A DNA stretch of 41,859 bases from Fidelibacterota bacterium (GTDB lineage Bacteria; Fidelibacterota; Marinisomatia; Marinisomatales; SCKK01): contig SCKK01000029.1 in NCBI GenBank assembly GCA_004124475.1, forward strand, positions 1 to 41,859, in the 5' to 3' direction. Shown here piece after piece: positions 1 through 37,429 of this stretch. A program made the position numbers and the translations under genes. Numbering within the stretch: position 1 is the first letter of the stretch; every line of letters begins with the position of its first letter. The notes under the pieces are model-generated. The model saw nothing but the letters and a program-made list of their open reading frames with translations. It ran no database searches and was not told the origin of the DNA.

Positions 1-145
1 GAGACTTTAGAACCATCACAGATGATGAAATAATCAGAGTTATTAAAAAGCTAAATAACCGTCCGAGAAAATGTCTTGGGTTCAAAACCCCCAATCAGGT
101 ATTTTTCGGGGAACTTTCAAATGTTGCACTTACTACTTGAATCCA
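1..145 (+). mobile_element. Right end of an IS30-family insertion sequence
   Basis: The window opens inside the 3' end of an IS30-type transposase reading frame. The stop codon lies within a segment around 123-145 (GTTGCACTTACTACTTGAAT and following bases) that resembles the terminal inverted repeat which commonly overlaps the transposase stop in IS30 elements. The exact outer boundary cannot be fixed because the other terminus is outside the window. No target duplication can be tested. Confidence 0.6.
3..140 (+). CDS. IS30-family transposase, C-terminal fragment (partial)
   Basis: The frame starting at base 3 is open to the TGA at 138-140 and encodes 45 residues. They contain the signature of the end of the IS30 DDE transposase: KLNNRPRKCLGFKTPNQVF, then a VALTT tail. 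In this family the NxRPRKxLGxxTPxEVF segment follows the catalytic glutamate of the DDE domain, so only the last part of the RNase-H-like fold is present here. The rest of the gene lies upstream of the window, so it cannot be said whether the element is intact. The next gene is on the opposite strand and not functionally linked. Confidence 0.8.
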   Translation, partial: DFRTITDDEIIRVIKKLNNRPRKCLGFKTPNQVFFGELSNVALTT

Positions 146-212: not shown

Positions 213-755
213 TTATTTAATAATTTGTGAGATTGCCTTAAAGGTTTCCCCTTTTGCTCTTTGCTGTAATTCGAACAAAGCCATTTCCACGGATGTTAAT
301 TGGGCGCCAAGGTCTCTTAATTTGTTCAGCGCAAGATGATAGTTTGATTCTTTCCGGGACATCACGGCATCCGTCACAATGTGAACATCATAATCATCCC
401 TCAAAAGATCTCTCGCTGTTTGGTAAACACATACGTGAGTTTCAATTCCGCATAACAAAGCTTGGTTTCTTTTTAAAATACCTATGCTTTCTTTAATTGT
501 TTCATCTCCGAAACAGCTGAAGAATAATTTCTCCTGATGATCAAATCCCTCAAGATTTTCACGCACACTCGATATGGTTGGTCCCAAACCTTTTGGATAC
601 TGTTCCGTCCAAACGATAGGCAAACCAAGAACTTTTGCACCTTCAATAATTCGATTAATGTTTTGTTCTGTATCAACTTGTTCGTGCATCGTAGCAAATA
701 TTTTTTCTTGAACATCTATGACCATTAAAAATGAATTGTCTGTTATTAATTTCAC
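213..755 (-). CDS. Isochorismatase-family cysteine hydrolase (YcaC/nicotinamidase-like)
   Basis: A 180-residue protein with the alpha/beta fold of the isochorismatase-like cysteine hydrolases. The expected catalytic triad is visible: Asp14 in MVIDVQEK, Lys76 in QEKLFFSCF, and Cys109 in LCGIETHVCV, which also supplies the usual cis-peptide region just before the nucleophile. Length is typical of the YcaC/hydrolase branch. Members cleave amides or vinyl ethers (nicotinamide, isochorismate, N-carbamoyl compounds); nothing in the sequence singles out one substrate. The start at 755 is GTG with a weak ribosome-binding site; an alternative ATG at residue 11 would remove the strand before Asp14 and is less likely. 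It lies 12 bases downstream of the peroxiredoxin gene and is probably co-transcribed with it. Confidence 0.85.
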   Translation of the reverse strand: MKLITDNSFLMVIDVQEKIFATMHEQVDTEQNINRIIEGAKVLGLPIVWTEQYPKGLGPTISSVRENLEGFDHQEKLFFSCFGDETIKESIGILKRNQALLCGIETHVCVYQTARDLLRDDYDVHIVTDAVMSRKESNYHLALNKLRDLGAQLTSVEMALFELQQRAKGETFKAISQIIK

Positions 756-767
756 AAATGTTCTGGT

Positions 768-1226
768 TTATCCGTGCAGGTTCATTATCTGAAAAATCTC
801 GTCCTGGTGCTTTTTGGGAGAAACTTTTTTAAAAACATGTAACACTATATTGTCTTTATCTAAAATAAAAGTGCTTCTGATAATTCCTATATACTCTTTC
901 CCATACAGCTTCTTTTTACCAAAAGCTCCAAATCGTTTGATGACTCTTTTTTCTTCATCACATATCAGTGGATAAGTTATCCCAAGACGGTCTGCAAATT
1001 TCCTTTGTGCAGTAGGAGTATCAGCTGATATACCTATTACCTCAATGTTGGCTTCTTTGTAGATATAAATATTAGACTGGAACCCAGCCGCTTCTGTTAT
1101 TCAGCCGGGCGTATTTGCTTTAGGAAAGAAAAAAACGATTTTCTTCTTTTTTCCCCCAACAGCAATATCTTGCCCATTATAATCCTTGAGAATTATTGTT
1201 TCTATTCTTTCTCCCAATTCAACCAT
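768..1226 (-). CDS. Bcp/PrxQ-type peroxiredoxin, probable selenoprotein with in-frame TGA (Sec42)
   Basis: Reading through one TGA (1101-1103) gives a full-length 152-residue thioredoxin-fold peroxiredoxin of the Bcp/PrxQ type. Before the TGA comes VFFFPKANTPG, after it ITEAAGF. In E. coli Bcp the aligned motif is TPGCT, so the TGA sits exactly at the peroxidatic cysteine (codon 42). The rest of the fold continues normally: ISADTPTAQRKFADRLG, YPLICDEE, YGKEYIGIIRSTFILD. The resolving cysteine five residues later is Ala47, so this would be a one-selenol/one-Cys enzyme reducing hydroperoxides in the cytoplasm. The ATG at 1226 follows a strong AAGGAGGTG (1238-1246). A SECIS-like hairpin follows the TGA. 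Peroxiredoxin-family selenoproteins are established; selenocysteine insertion here is inferred. Alternatives are a nonsense mutation or a base error. No sel genes are in the window. Confidence 0.8.
1075..1089 (-). promoter_or_regulatory. Bacterial SECIS-like hairpin downstream of the in-frame TGA
   Basis: On the mRNA strand the sequence GGCTGG-GTT-CCAGTC forms a 6-bp stem (one G-U pair) with a three-base loop beginning with G. There are 17 bases between the TGA and the loop. Known bacterial SECIS elements sit just inside the coding region after UGA, with a small stem, a G in the first two loop positions and a loop roughly 16-37 bases from the UGA. This hairpin meets those rules. It would recruit SelB carrying Sec-tRNA. 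Short hairpins also arise by chance, so the position next to a catalytic-site TGA is what gives it weight. Confidence 0.6.
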
Positions 1227-1233
1227 TGTATCC

Positions 1234-1673
1234 TTAACACCTCCTTAAAATTCCAACAATTACACCTTGCACTACTACAGATTCTGCGTTGAACAAATCA
1301 CACTGTTTCTTGTCATTTACAGATCGTAGCTCTATACTCCCATTTTTCTTATAGAATTTCTTTATAGTAACATTTTTGCTGGCTTAAAAGCGTTTTCCTT
1401 AGACACTGAGCCTAAAACTAGCAGAACTGTCAACTTCTTCTCTAAAGGATCTAATTCTATTGCCCGGGTTCGATTCCATTTATGTTTAATTAACCCTTTT
1501 TCCTTAAGTGTTTTAATGTGTTTATATACCGTTCCTTTTGATTTAAAACTAAAATGGTCGGCGATCTCCTTAAATGTGGGAGCATACCCCTTTTGAGAGA
1601 GATATGTTATTAAATATGTTAGTATTTCTTTTTGCCTTTTAGTTACGTACATAAGAACACCAGGCGCATTCAA
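1234..1673 (-). pseudogene. lexA: lexA remnant: HTH domain and C-terminal tail, protease core deleted, frameshifted
   Basis: The N-terminal part is a clear LexA winged-helix domain: TKRQKEILTYLITYL, GYAPTFKEIADHF, TVYKHIKTLKEKGLI and the closing RTRAIEL. The likely start is the ATG at 1652; a TTG at 1673 also fits. After LLVLGSVSKENAF, which aligns with the segment around the Ala-Gly self-cleavage site but lacks Ala-Gly, the frame ends at 1362. Shifting one frame at a run of five A's (about 1374) reveals the genuine LexA C-terminus, NVTIKKFYKKNG to VVVQGVIVGILRRC, ending at 1234-1236. About 55-60 residues that should contain the catalytic serine are missing between the two parts. This cannot be an SOS-cleavable repressor as written. 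The truncated product could still bind DNA. Its end overlaps the ribosome-binding site of the peroxiredoxin gene. Confidence 0.75.
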
Positions 1674-28244: not shown

Positions 28245-31200
28245 ATGAGAAACTATTCACGTTCAAGATTTGGAAGTTCTATTATTGCCATCTCTATTAC
28301 CATCGGCCTGATCGCTTCAGTCCTCTCCTCCGCTGAGAGAAAAGGACAGGGGCCCCGGCGTCTCTACAAAGCAGATACGGGGCAGTTCGATGGCAACCGG
28401 ATCCGGAATGACCTGGAAAACAACGGCATGATTGTGTCTCATCGTATCACAGGGCATTCGGGGATGGAATGGCCTAAAGGCACGAATCTCTTCATCAACT
28501 TTGCTTCTGGCATCTGGATTGCCGGCAAAGTTGGGGCCGATATCCGTACCGCTGTTGGTGAATATGGGCCGGAATTTGTAGCAGGTCCTTGGGGCAGTGA
28601 TGCTGGTGCGTCTGAACACCAACTTTACATCGTAAACAAGAGTGACCTGGCCGATCCGTTGGCAAATGATGATTTTCAGAACTGGCCGGTTGATCTGGGT
28701 GCCCCTTGGGTAGATGCGGATAACAGTGGTCACTATAACCCTCTAGGGCCGCCTGGAGGAACAGATTATCCCGAGTTTATCGGTGATCAGGTGCTCTGGT
28801 ACGTCATTAACGATGGAGACGTGGATGAACACGGCAATATATTCGGGACCCTCCCCCTGGGCATTGAAGTTCAGATGACCATTTGGGGGTATGATCGCCC
28901 CGATGCTTTTGGCGATATGATGTTTGTTAAAGCGCTCATCATTAACAAGGGTGGAGTTGACGTTACGGAGACGATTATTGGACTATGGTCCGACCCAGAT
29001 CTGGGCGATGCCGGTGATGATTTTGTGGGCTGCGACACGCTACTCAGCCTTGGTTTTTGCTATAACGACGGAGCCGACCGAGATTATGGGAGTGACCCGC
29101 CTGCCATTGGGTATGACTTCTTTCAGGGGCCCATTGTCCCATCACCCGGTGATACGGCCTTCGCCTTTGGCAGGTTTATTCCGGACTTCAAAAACCTGCC
29201 TATGAGTTCCTTTTCAAAATATATTAACACCGAAGACCCCAACTGGTCCGACCCAAACACTGCCATAGAGATGTACAACCTGATGTCGGGGCTGACCAAG
29301 GCTGGTGGCGACTTCATAAATAGTGAAACGGGCCAACCCACCAAATTTGTCCTTGCGGATGACCCGAACGACAATACCGGCTTTGGCGATGGTGTATGGG
29401 TGGATTCAGACGACCACGCCTCCGGGGACCGCCGCTTCCTAATGAACGCTGGCCCCTTTACGCTTGCTGACGGTGATTCACAGGAGGTGGTATTTGGGAT
29501 CATTATCGCTAGGGGCTCTGACGCGCTGTCGTCGATAACCGCGCTGAAGGAAGTGGACAAACTCGCACAGTTGGCCTATGATATCCAGTTTGCGCTACCG
29601 GAAATACCAACCAATCCCAAAGTTACGGTGAGTACCCTGGCCGATGCCATTGTGCTTAACTGGGACGATGGCGTGAATGTGGTTGAGAGTTATGAAGCTA
29701 TAGATATCATTGATAAACTCCCTGTTCCTGTCGCTTTTGATACGACCTGGGTGACGGATATTGTTGATATCATAACGGTAACCTATGACACGACAATTGT
29801 TGGAACGGATACCACTATAACAGCAACCTATGATACAACCTTCAATTACATACAGGTCATTGATCAAATTGACACCACATTTGAAGGCCAAAACACAAAA
29901 TTCACCTTCCAGGGATTTAACGTTTATCAGCTTGAAACACTTGCTGGACAAGGGGCAAAAAAGCGTATCGCCACCTTCGATCTTATAGATGGAGTTACAG
30001 AAATATTCGATATCGTATTTAATCCGACACGGGGAGAAAACGTGGAAGTGAGGGTTCAGTTTGGGACTGATAGTGGAATAAAGCGGAGCCTAGTGATTGA
30101 TACGGATGGCTTGAATGGGGGGATTCCTCTTAAAACCAATCGGGCCTATTACTTCGCTGTGACGGCTTATGGCTATAATCCCTACGGCATTCCAAGGACT
30201 CTGGAAAGCTCCCTAAAAATTCTGACGATCCGACCCCAGATTAGTACTAGAGTTGATCAGGATTCGGTGGCAGAGGCCGGCATTAGCGGTCTTGCCGCCA
30301 CACACAGTGCTGGTGGCTCGGACGGTTCCGTCAGTATTACGGTGATTGATCCTCTAGCCGTCACCGGGGATAATTACGAAGTGACCTTCCGCTGGAACGC
30401 GGACAGCTCCTCCATTATCTGGGACCTGACAAACACGACCACCAATACGATGCTGGTTTCGGGCAATCCCATTCAGGGTGGGGTTGATCTGGAAAGCGGA
30501 GATGTAGTGGGTGTGGAGGCCAGCCCCATCGTTGAGGGGATCCAGGTTATGGTAAGTGGGCCCGCCCTTGATTTTAAGAATTTCCAGGTTGTGGCCAATG
30601 CCGCCGGGGCGATCGATCCACCCGAAGGGGCAGCTGCAGATTTTCAAGGCTTTCCTACTCTAAGACCAACCGATGGCCAACAGGTTGGTGGGGGTCATTG
30701 GATGTTCCATACCGGTGGCGGGGGACGTAGCTCTTATGAGACTTTCTTAGCCAGGAGTATGCGCGGCAGCAATTTTGACAGGCTGGTCCCCTACGATTGG
30801 GAAATGCGTTTTACTGCGGAGGGAAGCTATGCCGTGCGGGCCTTCGAAGACGGACTTATTGTGTCTGTGCCGTTCGAATTGTGGAACGTTGGTATTGCTA
30901 CCTATGATGATCCGAGCGATGATTATCGCTTGATACCGTGGTTCCTGTCGCTTGCAGGTCTCGGAGAGAATGACCTTGATGACTTTGTGTACCAGGTGGA
31001 AGCTAATGACCATGCCACCTCTGGCGGGTCTAATGATCCCTATACCGATTGGATATATTGGAGAATCCCAGAAGACAACTCAGCCGGTACCGCAGGGTAC
31101 GATGCATTCGTGGCATCAATAGACTTCACGACGGATCCGCCTAACGAGGGCAGCTATGCCTATGATGGAGCGGAGGTTATTGCCCGGTCAGTACTTGTAA

Positions 31201-31685
31201 ACTGGAATGGGGGCGATGTAGATGATCCAACATGGCCAGCAAACGTAAATCAACTCGTGCCGGAAGAAGGGACGATTTTCAGGTTAATCAGCACCAAGCC
31301 CAATGCGATTGTGGATGTCTTCACCTTTAGCACGAGTACCTTTAAGGCAGATATAGTTGTATACGACCCAGAAAATATAAATGTGTGGCCGAATCCATAC
31401 TTTGGCTTCAATCCTGAAGAGAGAACGCCTCTTGAAAGGAAGATGGTATTTACTCATCTGCCCGAAACCGGTAAGGCGACAATACGTATCTTCAATTTGG
31501 CTGGAGAACTGGTGAAGAAGTTAGAGCATTCAGATGGGACGCAGTTTGAGACCTGGGATTTGACGAATAATTTCGACGTCCCGGTAGGTAGTGGAATGTA
31601 TATTGTTCATATTGAAACGGATAAGGGCGACAAGGTTCTCAAATTAGCGGTTATTCAGCCTGAAGAACGTTTGGATGTTTACTAA
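28245..31685 (+). CDS. Giant secreted protein, paralogue 1, with fibronectin-like and C-terminal sorting domain
   Basis: 1146 residues, function unknown. A signal peptide (SIIAISITIGLIASVLSSA) is followed by a conserved block shared with the genes at 34175 and 38146: TGQFDGNRIRNDLENNGM, ITGHSGMEWP, FASGIWIAG, GDQVLWYV, DDFVGCDTLLSLGF. A possible calcium loop is DADNSGHYN. A fibronectin-III-like domain (about 460-665) carries an insertion with repeated TYDTT that paralogue 2 lacks. The C-terminus, VWPNPYFGFNPEE ... TIRIFNLAGELVKKL ... GSGMYIVHIE, is a FlgD-Ig/type IX-like sorting domain, so export to the surface is likely. Good GAGGT ribosome-binding site. Positions 30345-31390 are almost identical to 36095-37140 (gene conversion). 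It lies between the TonB receptor and the PorV-like gene. Confidence 0.75.
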   Translation: MRNYSRSRFGSSIIAISITIGLIASVLSSAERKGQGPRRLYKADTGQFDGNRIRNDLENNGMIVSHRITGHSGMEWPKGTNLFINFASGIWIAGKVGADIRTAVGEYGPEFVAGPWGSDAGASEHQLYIVNKSDLADPLANDDFQNWPVDLGAPWVDADNSGHYNPLGPPGGTDYPEFIGDQVLWYVINDGDVDEHGNIFGTLPLGIEVQMTIWGYDRPDAFGDMMFVKALIINKGGVDVTETIIGLWSDPDLGDAGDDFVGCDTLLSLGFCYNDGADRDYGSDPPAIGYDFFQGPIVPSPGDTAFAFGRFIPDFKNLPMSSFSKYINTEDPNWSDPNTAIEMYNLMSGLTKAGGDFINSETGQPTKFVLADDPNDNTGFGDGVWVDSDDHASGDRRFLMNAGPFTLADGDSQEVVFGIIIARGSDALSSITALKEVDKLAQLAYDIQFALPEIPTNPKVTVSTLADAIVLNWDDGVNVVESYEAIDIIDKLPVPVAFDTTWVTDIVDIITVTYDTTIVGTDTTITATYDTTFNYIQVIDQIDTTFEGQNTKFTFQGFNVYQLETLAGQGAKKRIATFDLIDGVTEIFDIVFNPTRGENVEVRVQFGTDSGIKRSLVIDTDGLNGGIPLKTNRAYYFAVTAYGYNPYGIPRTLESSLKILTIRPQISTRVDQDSVAEAGISGLAATHSAGGSDGSVSITVIDPLAVTGDNYEVTFRWNADSSSIIWDLTNTTTNTMLVSGNPIQGGVDLESGDVVGVEASPIVEGIQVMVSGPALDFKNFQVVANAAGAIDPPEGAAADFQGFPTLRPTDGQQVGGGHWMFHTGGGGRSSYETFLARSMRGSNFDRLVPYDWEMRFTAEGSYAVRAFEDGLIVSVPFELWNVGIATYDDPSDDYRLIPWFLSLAGLGENDLDDFVYQVEANDHATSGGSNDPYTDWIYWRIPEDNSAGTAGYDAFVASIDFTTDPPNEGSYAYDGAEVIARSVLVNWNGGDVDDPTWPANVNQLVPEEGTIFRLISTKPNAIVDVFTFSTSTFKADIVVYDPENINVWPNPYFGFNPEERTPLERKMVFTHLPETGKATIRIFNLAGELVKKLEHSDGTQFETWDLTNNFDVPVGSGMYIVHIETDKGDKVLKLAVIQPEERLDVY
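30345..31390 (+). repeat. 1046-bp near-identical block, copy A (gene-conversion tract)
   Basis: Aligned without gaps to 36095-37140 (offset 5750) it has 10 mismatches by direct comparison; the run 30427-30787 is fully identical. Immediately outside the block the two genes are much less similar. It encodes roughly residues 700-1049 of paralogue 1. Four of the mismatches or mismatch pairs change the protein (Ser/Pro, Asp/Glu, Ala/Thr, Asp/Gly). Confidence 0.95.
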
Positions 31686-34031: not shown

Positions 34032-34174
34032 TAAATGAATATTGACACCTGTTTTTTGCTTTAATTTTTCTTATCTTCAGTAAGTGTTTGACTGTTATCA
34101 TAAAGGGAGACTTTAAAACTGAGGTAAAAATATTATTATTTACTTCAGATACTTTAAAGAAAAACCAAAACAAT

Positions 34175-37100
34175 ATGATTTTTAAATCAATTCTTATAAT
34201 ATTCACCGCTACTATTTTTACCGGGATTTTTAGTTCAGATGTGCTCGCTGCTGAAGTGCCGGAAGTGAGAGGTAATCCTAATCGTCTGGCGAAGATAAAA
34301 ATTGCTGATACCGGACAATTTGACGGTAACCGAATACGTAATGATCTGGAAAACAACGGCATGATCGTATCCCACCGCATCACCGGTCATTCGGGAATGG
34401 AATGGCCTAAAGGTTCAAACCAATACATCAACTTTGCTTCGGGTATCTGGATAGCGGGATTTGTGAATGGTGATCTTCGTATTGCAGTGGCAGAATATAG
34501 ACCGGAGTTTGTACCGGGACCCTATGGCAGTGATCCTGATGATCCCGCCTACCGCATTTATAAACTCAGCTACCTTAATCCTCATAGTGAGGACTATACC
34601 GAATGGCCCGTAGAGCAAGGAGCTCCCTGGATCGATGCCAATGGGGATGGTGTTTATAACGTGGAGGACGGTGATAAGCCTGATATGCTGGGCGACCAGA
34701 TGTTATGGTATGTGATGAACGATGGTGATGTAGCTGAACACGGTAATATATTTGGGACGCTTCCCTTAGGTGTCGAAGTTCAAATAACCATTTGGGGATA
34801 TGTCCGGGCCAGCGTCGTGGGAGATATGATGTTTGTAAAGATCCTGATTATAAATAAAGGGGAAGACACTATTGATTCTACGTTCATTACTCTGTGGGAT
34901 GATCCGGACCTTGGTAATGCTGGTGATGACTTTGTGGGGTGTGATACAACTTTGAGCCTTGGTTTCTGCTATAACGATGGGGCAGATCATGATTATGGTA
35001 GCGATCCCCCGGCAATTGGCTATGACTTCTTCCAGGGGCCTATAGTTCCATCACCCGGTGACACCGCATTTGCATTTGGGGGATACATTCCCAACTTTAA
35101 AAACCTTCCCATGACTTCGTTCATAAAATATATTGGTACGAGTGACCCAAACTGGTCAGATCCAAGCAATGCCCGAGATGCTTACAATCTAATGCAGGGC
35201 TTGCACAAGAATGGTGACCCTTTCATAAATAGTGAAACGGGTGTAAGCACCAAATTCGTGTATGCTGATGATCCTAATGACAATACCGGTGCGGGTGATG
35301 GTGTTTGGGTAGATTCGGATGACCACGCTTCTGGAGACCGTCGATTTATGATGAATTCAGGTCCTTTCACGATGGCTCCTGGCGATTCACAGGAGGTTGT
35401 TTTCGGCATTATTATTGCTCGTGGAACGGATGCCTTGAACTCGGTCACCGTTTTGAAGGAGGTAGACGTGATGGCACAATCGGCCTTTGATCTTGGTTTC
35501 AAAATGCCAAAACCTGAATTCATAAGCAATGTGGCTGTTACGGCTCTTGAAGATGCCATAATCCTGAATTGGGACGATGGATTTAATGCGATTGAACAGT
35601 TTACCGAAGAGGCTCTCTTTGAAAAAGATTCGCTGGGGCAAAAAGCCTGGTACCGGTTCCAAGGATACAACGTATATCAACTGGAGACGGCTTACGGTCA
35701 GGGAGATATTAAGCGGCTGGCAACATACGATATTATAGATGGGGTGACAGAGATATGGGACGACATCTACGATCCTGACTATGGAAGTGTTGTCAATGTT
35801 CGAGTTCAGTATGGTTACGATAGTGGTGTTAAGCGGAGTATTGTTATTGATCGTGATGCTCTCAGGAATGATATTCCGCTCAAAACCAACCGGGTATACT
35901 ATTTTGCTGTTACTGCATATGGTTATAATCCGAATGGGGAGCCGAAGACGGTGGAAAGTGAGATGAAGATCATTGAGGTGCGACCACAAGTGTCCACAGC
36001 GCAGATTGTGTCTGAGGAGATACAACCGGGTATCACTTCCATTCCCATAATTCACATTTCAGGCAACTCAGACGGATTAGTTAAAGCTGTGGTCATTGAT
36101 CCTCTAGCCGTCACCGGGGATAATTACGAAGTGACCTTCCGCTGGAACGCGGACAGCTCCTCCATTATCTGGGACTTGACAAACACGACCACCAATACGA
36201 TGCTGGTTTCGGGCAATCCCATTCAGGGTGGGGTTGATCTGGAAAGCGGAGATGTAGTGGGTGTGGAGGCCAGCCCCATCGTTGAGGGGATCCAGGTTAT
36301 GGTAAGTGGGCCCGCCCTTGATTTTAAGAATTTCCAGGTTGTGGCCAATGCCGCCGGGGCGATCGATCCACCCGAAGGGGCAGCTGCAGATTTTCAAGGC
36401 TTTCCTACTCTAAGACCAACCGATGGCCAACAGGTTGGTGGGGGTCATTGGATGTTCCATACCGGTGGCGGGGGACGTAGCTCTTATGAGACTTTCTTAG
36501 CCAGGAGTATGCGCGGCAGCAATTTTGACAGGCTGGTTCCCTACGATTGGGAGATGCGTTTTACCGCGGAGGGAAGCTATGCCGTGCGGGCCTTCGAAGA
36601 CGGACTTATTGTGTCTGTGCCGTTCGAATTGTGGAACGTTGGTATTGCTACCTATGATGATCCGAGCGATGATTATCGCTTGATACCGTGGTTCCTGTCG
36701 CTTGCAGGTCTCGGAGAGAATGATCTCGATGACTTTGTGTACCAGGTGGAAGCTAATGACCATGCCACCTCTGGCGGGCCTAATGATCCCTATACCGATT
36801 GGATATATTGGAGAATCCCAGAAGACAACTCAGCCGGTACCGCAGGGTACGATGCATTCGTGGCATCAATAGACTTCACGACGGATCCGCCTAACGAGGG
36901 CAGCTATGCCTATGATGGAGCGGAGGTTATTGCCCGGTCAGTACTTGTAAACTGGAATGGGGGCGATGTAGAAGATCCAACATGGCCAGCAAACGTAAAT
37001 CAACTCGTGCCGGAAGAAGGGACGATTTTCAGGTTAATCAGCACCAAGCCCAATGCGATTGTGGATGTCTTCACCTTTAGCACGAGTACCTTTAAGACAG

Positions 37101-37429
37101 GTATAGTTGTATACGACCCAGAAAATATAAATGTGTGGCCCAATCCTTATTTTGCTTACAATCCTGAGGAAAGGACACCCTTTGAGCGGAAGGTGATGTT
37201 TACACACCTTCCCGGAATAGCGACGATTCGTATATTCAACCTAGCAGGTGAATTGGTGAGGATAATCAGGCACACCGATGGGACACAATTCGAGACATGG
37301 GACCTGACGAATATGGTGGGCCGCTCTGTAGGAAGTGGGATGTATATTGTTTACATAGAGACGGAATTCGGTGCCATGGTACTGAAGCTTGCGGTCATCC
37401 AGCCTCAAGAACGTTTACACATTTACTAA
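34175..37429 (+). CDS. Giant secreted protein, paralogue 2, with C-terminal sorting domain
   Basis: About 1084 residues if started at the ATG 34175, which puts a signal peptide (ILIIFTATIFTGIFSSDVLA) at the N-terminus; an upstream frame to 34088 exists but would bury it. Architecture as in the gene at 28245: conserved block (TGQFDGNRIRNDLENNGM, HSGMEWPKGSNQYINF), EF-hand-like calcium loop DANGDGVYNVEDGD, DDFVGCDTTLSLGFCYNDG, fibronectin-like domain (FQGYNVYQLE ... YYFAVTAYGYNPNG), then the conversion block and the sorting domain VWPNPYFAYNPEE ... IRIFNLAGELVRI. It lacks the TYDTT insertion. Function unknown; surface export is inferred. First gene of a likely operon with a small lipoprotein and paralogue 3. 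Confidence 0.75.
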   Translation: MIFKSILIIFTATIFTGIFSSDVLAAEVPEVRGNPNRLAKIKIADTGQFDGNRIRNDLENNGMIVSHRITGHSGMEWPKGSNQYINFASGIWIAGFVNGDLRIAVAEYRPEFVPGPYGSDPDDPAYRIYKLSYLNPHSEDYTEWPVEQGAPWIDANGDGVYNVEDGDKPDMLGDQMLWYVMNDGDVAEHGNIFGTLPLGVEVQITIWGYVRASVVGDMMFVKILIINKGEDTIDSTFITLWDDPDLGNAGDDFVGCDTTLSLGFCYNDGADHDYGSDPPAIGYDFFQGPIVPSPGDTAFAFGGYIPNFKNLPMTSFIKYIGTSDPNWSDPSNARDAYNLMQGLHKNGDPFINSETGVSTKFVYADDPNDNTGAGDGVWVDSDDHASGDRRFMMNSGPFTMAPGDSQEVVFGIIIARGTDALNSVTVLKEVDVMAQSAFDLGFKMPKPEFISNVAVTALEDAIILNWDDGFNAIEQFTEEALFEKDSLGQKAWYRFQGYNVYQLETAYGQGDIKRLATYDIIDGVTEIWDDIYDPDYGSVVNVRVQYGYDSGVKRSIVIDRDALRNDIPLKTNRVYYFAVTAYGYNPNGEPKTVESEMKIIEVRPQVSTAQIVSEEIQPGITSIPIIHISGNSDGLVKAVVIDPLAVTGDNYEVTFRWNADSSSIIWDLTNTTTNTMLVSGNPIQGGVDLESGDVVGVEASPIVEGIQVMVSGPALDFKNFQVVANAAGAIDPPEGAAADFQGFPTLRPTDGQQVGGGHWMFHTGGGGRSSYETFLARSMRGSNFDRLVPYDWEMRFTAEGSYAVRAFEDGLIVSVPFELWNVGIATYDDPSDDYRLIPWFLSLAGLGENDLDDFVYQVEANDHATSGGPNDPYTDWIYWRIPEDNSAGTAGYDAFVASIDFTTDPPNEGSYAYDGAEVIARSVLVNWNGGDVEDPTWPANVNQLVPEEGTIFRLISTKPNAIVDVFTFSTSTFKTGIVVYDPENINVWPNPYFAYNPEERTPFERKVMFTHLPGIATIRIFNLAGELVRIIRHTDGTQFETWDLTNMVGRSVGSGMYIVYIETEFGAMVLKLAVIQPQERLHIY
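36095..37140 (+). repeat. 1046-bp near-identical block, copy B (gene-conversion tract)
   Basis: Partner of 30345-31390, same orientation, no gaps, 10 mismatches. Starts at ATTGATCCTCTAGCCG and ends at AATGTGTGGCC; the base before and the sequence after differ between the copies. Lies wholly inside paralogue 2 and keeps its frame. Confidence 0.95.

Follow-up and report, generated by a model that had tools for sequence, protein, structure and literature searches.

A predicted selenocysteine-containing peroxiredoxin of the Bcp/PrxQ type encoded across an in-frame TGA in an uncultured marine Neomarinimicrobiota bacterium

In an uncultured marine Neomarinimicrobiota bacterium, a peroxiredoxin gene appears to be interrupted by a stop codon. 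Is this gene decaying, or is the stop codon read as selenocysteine (Sec)? The gene lies near one end of the window, by which we mean the whole 41,859 bp stretch of contig SCKK01000029.1 analyzed here (Table 1). We addressed the question by sequence analysis of its homology, the site of the UGA, the Sec machinery of the host, conservation among relatives, covariation in a SECIS-like hairpin, and co-occurrence with selA. From these comparisons the gene almost certainly encodes an intact Sec-using, peroxide-destroying enzyme, and we consider it very probable that it is a functional selenoprotein gene specifying a peroxidase of the Bcp/PrxQ fold, with UGA-42 decoded as Sec.

The minus-strand frame from 1226 to 768 has a single internal TGA (1103-1101) among its 152 codons, and translates as MVELG...FFFPKANTPG*ITEAAGF...NLHG*. 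The read-through product matches the Pfam AhpC-TSA domain (PF00578/COG1225-type; 91 bits against a cut-off of 26, E 5.5e-26), and Bcp structures are among its best PDB matches. In the alignment the TGA falls on the peroxidatic Cys of solved Bcp/PrxQ chains (TPGCTTE), and it supplies the U of the PxxxT/SxxU motif (PKANTPG-UGA). Translation, Pfam and the structure alignment thus agree with the first-pass annotation, which described a Bcp/PrxQ gene intact except for one TGA at the peroxidatic Cys. The match to NCBIfam PRK09437 (thioredoxin-dependent thiol peroxidase, the Bcp equivalog) scores 115.5 bits, below the curated cut-off of 140, and the protein is therefore only related to that group. 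The ribosome-binding site had been described as strong; a Shine-Dalgarno-like AAGGAGGTG is indeed present, although 'strong' is a fair description rather than an ideal one because of its 11-nt spacer and a second, weaker AAGGA closer to the ATG, 4 nt before it.

Table 1. Features of the window at and around the predicted selenoprotein gene.
Feature	Position	Strand	Remarks
Predicted Sec-containing Bcp/PrxQ-type peroxiredoxin gene	768..1226	-	152 codons, UGA as Sec; translation, domain match, TGA-bearing orthologues
TGA codon 42, predicted peroxidatic selenocysteine (P35-xxx-T39-xx-U42)	1101..1103	-	translation and Bcp structure alignment
SECIS-like hairpin, type A (GGCUGG-GUU-CCAGUC)	1075..1089	-	fold; covariation compared with synonymous-codon shuffles
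Shine-Dalgarno-like AAGGAGGTG	1238..1246	-	11-nt spacer; GGAGG core 13 nt
Isochorismatase-family hydrolase (PF00857)	213..755	-	directly downstream of the peroxiredoxin gene; neighbor conserved in the type-A lineage
lexA-type repressor gene	1240..1673	-	upstream of the peroxiredoxin gene; lacks about 178 bp, out of frame; conserved type-A neighbor

The TGA is widely conserved. In 81 of 101 genomes of the order there is a best homologue at an E value of about 1e-20 or better, and 60 of these homologues contain exactly one TGA while the other 21 have no stop. The TGA is at the peroxidatic codon in all 59 TGA rows that were aligned and read directly, Pro35, Thr39 and Arg117 (window numbering) are invariant in the same 59 rows, and the 11 no-stop homologues of the order whose sequence was read all have Cys at this codon; the column, proposed earlier as a check on the Sec reading, is therefore Sec/Cys across the order. 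A genome of the same genus (94% identity) retains the TGA and an intact 152-codon frame, as expected from the earlier claim that the rest of the protein shows no decay; the frameshifts in sister strains that had been named as grounds for rejecting it are absent from this relative. Between these two genus members dN/dS is 0.26 before the TGA and 0.46 after it, values based on few changes and of low power. The TGA form is also common in other families of the class, and most other parts of the phylum have the no-stop form. A plasmid search gave distant homologues only, with none at 60% identity or more.

The first-pass annotation had also held that a lack of Sec machinery would count against it, and in the host genome (3.15 Mb in 77 contigs, 95% complete) all four components are present: selB, selA (530 bits), selD (387 bits), which has its own in-frame TGA at the usual Sec site (GSGUASK), and a tRNA-Sec with anticodon TCA (Rfam, 58.7 bits against a cut-off of 47). 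The tRNA-Sec sits on a different contig from the selA and selB loci, where ARAGORN finds no tRNA. Two further AhpC/TSA-family (thioredoxin/peroxiredoxin-like) genes of the host each have a single TGA inside the domain, at the active site: a TlpA-like domain gene on contig 65 (L151, 631-2199, minus strand; SWUPVC) and a Prx-like gene on contig 46 (L152, 846-1592, minus strand; YYUPKD). Other TGA-interrupted frames within the window are mostly antisense to coding genes and appear to be fortuitous.

Across the order, selA scores over the family cut-off in 55 of the 60 TGA genomes and in 6 of the 21 no-stop genomes (Fisher p 6.5e-8, a significance that is overstated since the test takes genomes as independent). 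All but one of the 15 no-stop genomes without selA belong to a single family (f15), whose genomes are of 1 Mb or less, lack selA and have the no-stop form. This co-occurrence is the pattern that Sec loss predicts. The five TGA genomes without selA above the cut-off (G017, G040, G049, G085 and G091) are drafts, 81-93% complete, one of which has a selA fragment, and they are probably incomplete assemblies.

Bacterial SECIS elements have an apical loop about 16-37 nt from the UGA, with a G early in the loop. The hairpin in the window has a six-pair stem (1089-1084/1080-1075) and a GUU loop (1083-1081) that starts 18 nt after the UGA, in agreement with the G-first loop claimed previously. Support for it is comparative and comes through its relatives: in single-sequence folding the window hairpin is no better than shuffled sequence (z -0.57), and an Rfam search with it gave no meaningful match, only a chance snoRNA match. 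The relatives have hairpins of two types. Type A, in families f1, f4 and f7 and including the window, has a stem around CUG[G/A]-GUU-[C/U]CAG in which a change of the closing pair from G-C to A-U is accompanied by a synonymous change in a Phe codon. Type B is found in most other families (GG[G/A]UUC-CGGGAU-GAA[C/U]UCC) and has exchanges between G-C and A-U and between U-A and C-G. Of the pair cells, 98% in type A and 90% in type B are standard pairs, compared with 95% and 81% in shuffles that deal synonymous codons among the sequences. Both the pairing level and the number of compensatory changes were reached in 7 of 500 shuffles for type A (nine sequences) and in none of 500 for type B (44 sequences), counts that are not strict probabilities because the hairpin rows are related, and that apply to structures picked from the very sequences tested. 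The hairpin that follows the TGA thus shows more covariation than synonymous-codon shuffling produces, which is what a bacterial SECIS element should show. Best-fit pairing is also higher in Sec genes (0.91) than in Cys genes (0.59; p 6e-10). Three Cys forms in family f6 (L120, L126 and L130) retain the type-B hairpin, which is expected if their change to Cys is recent and the hairpin degenerates once Sec has gone. Two Sec homologues in family f5 (L135 and L149) have neither type and instead show an apparent third hairpin, CCGC-AGTTT-GCGG.

These observations bear on other explanations for the TGA. A decaying gene in which a TGT or TGC Cys codon has mutated to TGA needs only one substitution, and the neighboring lexA gene carries a frame-breaking deletion. 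However, the identical TGA is present in 60 genomes of the order and in many more of the class, the homologues displayed have no other lesion, the downstream protein and hairpin are under constraint, and the host has the full machinery; conservation of the TGA across families refutes decay, to which we give almost no credence. A one-base sequencing or assembly error might be suspected in a draft, metagenome-type assembly where the adjacent lexA deletion may itself be an assembly fault, but independent assemblies from the same genus and from other families have the same codon. An error is refuted by the recurrence of the TGA in these independent genomes, and is the least credible explanation of all. 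Reading of the UGA as another residue (Trp, or Cys via a suppressor tRNA) under an alternative code has slightly more to recommend it, as UGA is reassigned in some bacteria and bioinformatic Sec calls alone cannot exclude Cys insertion at UGA. Nonetheless, it too is highly improbable: the standard code gives normal long open frames for other genes in the window, Rfam identifies the tRNA with the UCA anticodon as tRNA-Sec, and the TGA occupies the Cys/Sec catalytic column and is followed by the covarying hairpin.

Taking the codon as Sec, we infer its actual insertion, peroxidase activity and a one-Sec recycling route. UGA-42 would be decoded by the cell's own SelA, SelB, SelD and tRNA-Sec, with the short hairpin guiding insertion through its loop 18 nt after the UGA. 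Sec42, held by Pro35, Thr39 and Arg117 in an arrangement consistent with the usual active site of peroxiredoxins (PxxxTxxU), would attack hydroperoxides and become a selenenic acid, for which an external thiol (thioredoxin, glutaredoxin or a small thiol) is the most likely reductant. The resolving Cys had been reported as absent, and this holds for both canonical PrxQ positions, CP+5 and helix-3, which are Ala47 and Ala78, such that the protein does not qualify as a two-Cys PrxQ/Bcp; it does contain one other Cys, C89. The helix-3 site is Cys in 30 of the 59 Sec homologues, the lineage of the window lacking it. Because there is no canonical resolving Cys, the protein is predicted to be a one-Sec peroxidase with an outside thiol as reductant. 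An alternative in which Cys89 serves as the resolving residue for recycling, in an atypical two-Cys-like manner, seems unlikely; the protein has no other Cys and the sister genome also has C89, but this position is Ser in 42 of the 59 Sec homologues and the known PrxQ resolving sites lie elsewhere.

The history of Sec in the order is less clear. A tree built from the proteins yields two strongly supported groups (100/99), one made up of the type-A sequences plus two Cys sequences and the other of the type-B sequences plus nine Cys sequences; the Cys members branch at roughly five points within these groups. Support for the deeper connection of A with B is weak, and a single Sec origin and two origins are therefore indistinguishable. 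Tentatively, the two lineages, which differ in SECIS hairpin and in location (A adjacent to lexA, B elsewhere), could have arisen through two separate changes from Cys to Sec, with several later reversions, one of them in a family that has lost selA, although we regard this as somewhat doubtful.

All nine type-A loci are flanked by an isochorismatase-like gene and, on the opposite side, by lexA. In the window, the segment missing from the lexA-type gene relative to its same-genus version lies between two GCAAAAATG copies, and only the DNA-binding half remains open; the loss is either genuine or an artifact of assembly collapse. Elsewhere, two 1.35-kb stretches (30341-31685 and 36091-37429), each forming the 3' end of a long ORF (28245-31685 and 34088-37429, respectively), are 93% identical and may represent a duplication or gene conversion. 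The contig starts inside an apparent transposase end (window 1-140; RPRKCLGFKTPNQVFFGELSNVALTT), as judged by eye.

The analysis recovers a genuine antioxidant gene, which standard gene-calling software would give as truncated or as two fragments. Within the order the same enzyme occurs naturally in Sec and Cys versions, in genomes that have the machinery and in genomes that lack it, which makes the group suitable for study of Sec gain and loss. In the open-licence literature we found no paper on Marinimicrobia/SAR406 selenoproteins, other than a 2016 listing of SAR406 single-cell genomes of this phylum as having 'orphan' SelD (PMC5029168); the present comparison shows Sec use to be widespread in Neomarinimicrobiota. 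The family itself is well known, as the earlier caution about novelty anticipated. PrxU of Eubacterium acidaminophilum was described in 2001 (Soehling 2001, as cited in PMC13188914), and there are 43 Sec peroxiredoxin sequences from the Sargasso Sea (PMC1088965) and 253 from Global Ocean Sampling (GOS; PMC2398784). The window protein has the same domain and COG as these PxxxTxxU proteins and Sec at the peroxidatic position, its TPGU corresponding to their TxxU, and the Sec machinery and post-UGA hairpin are likewise common to both. It differs in lacking both canonical PrxQ resolving cysteines, in its location between lexA and the isochorismatase-like gene, and probably in its host phylum. Compared with Cys-type Bcp/PrxQ proteins (Xanthomonas PrxQ, PDB 5iph/3gkk series), it is homologous and conserves the catalytic Pro, Thr and Arg, but has predicted Sec in place of the peroxidatic Cys and no Cys at CP+5 or helix-3. 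What is new is the host phylum, the pair of lineages that differ in SECIS hairpin, and the lexA-peroxiredoxin-isochorismatase cluster.
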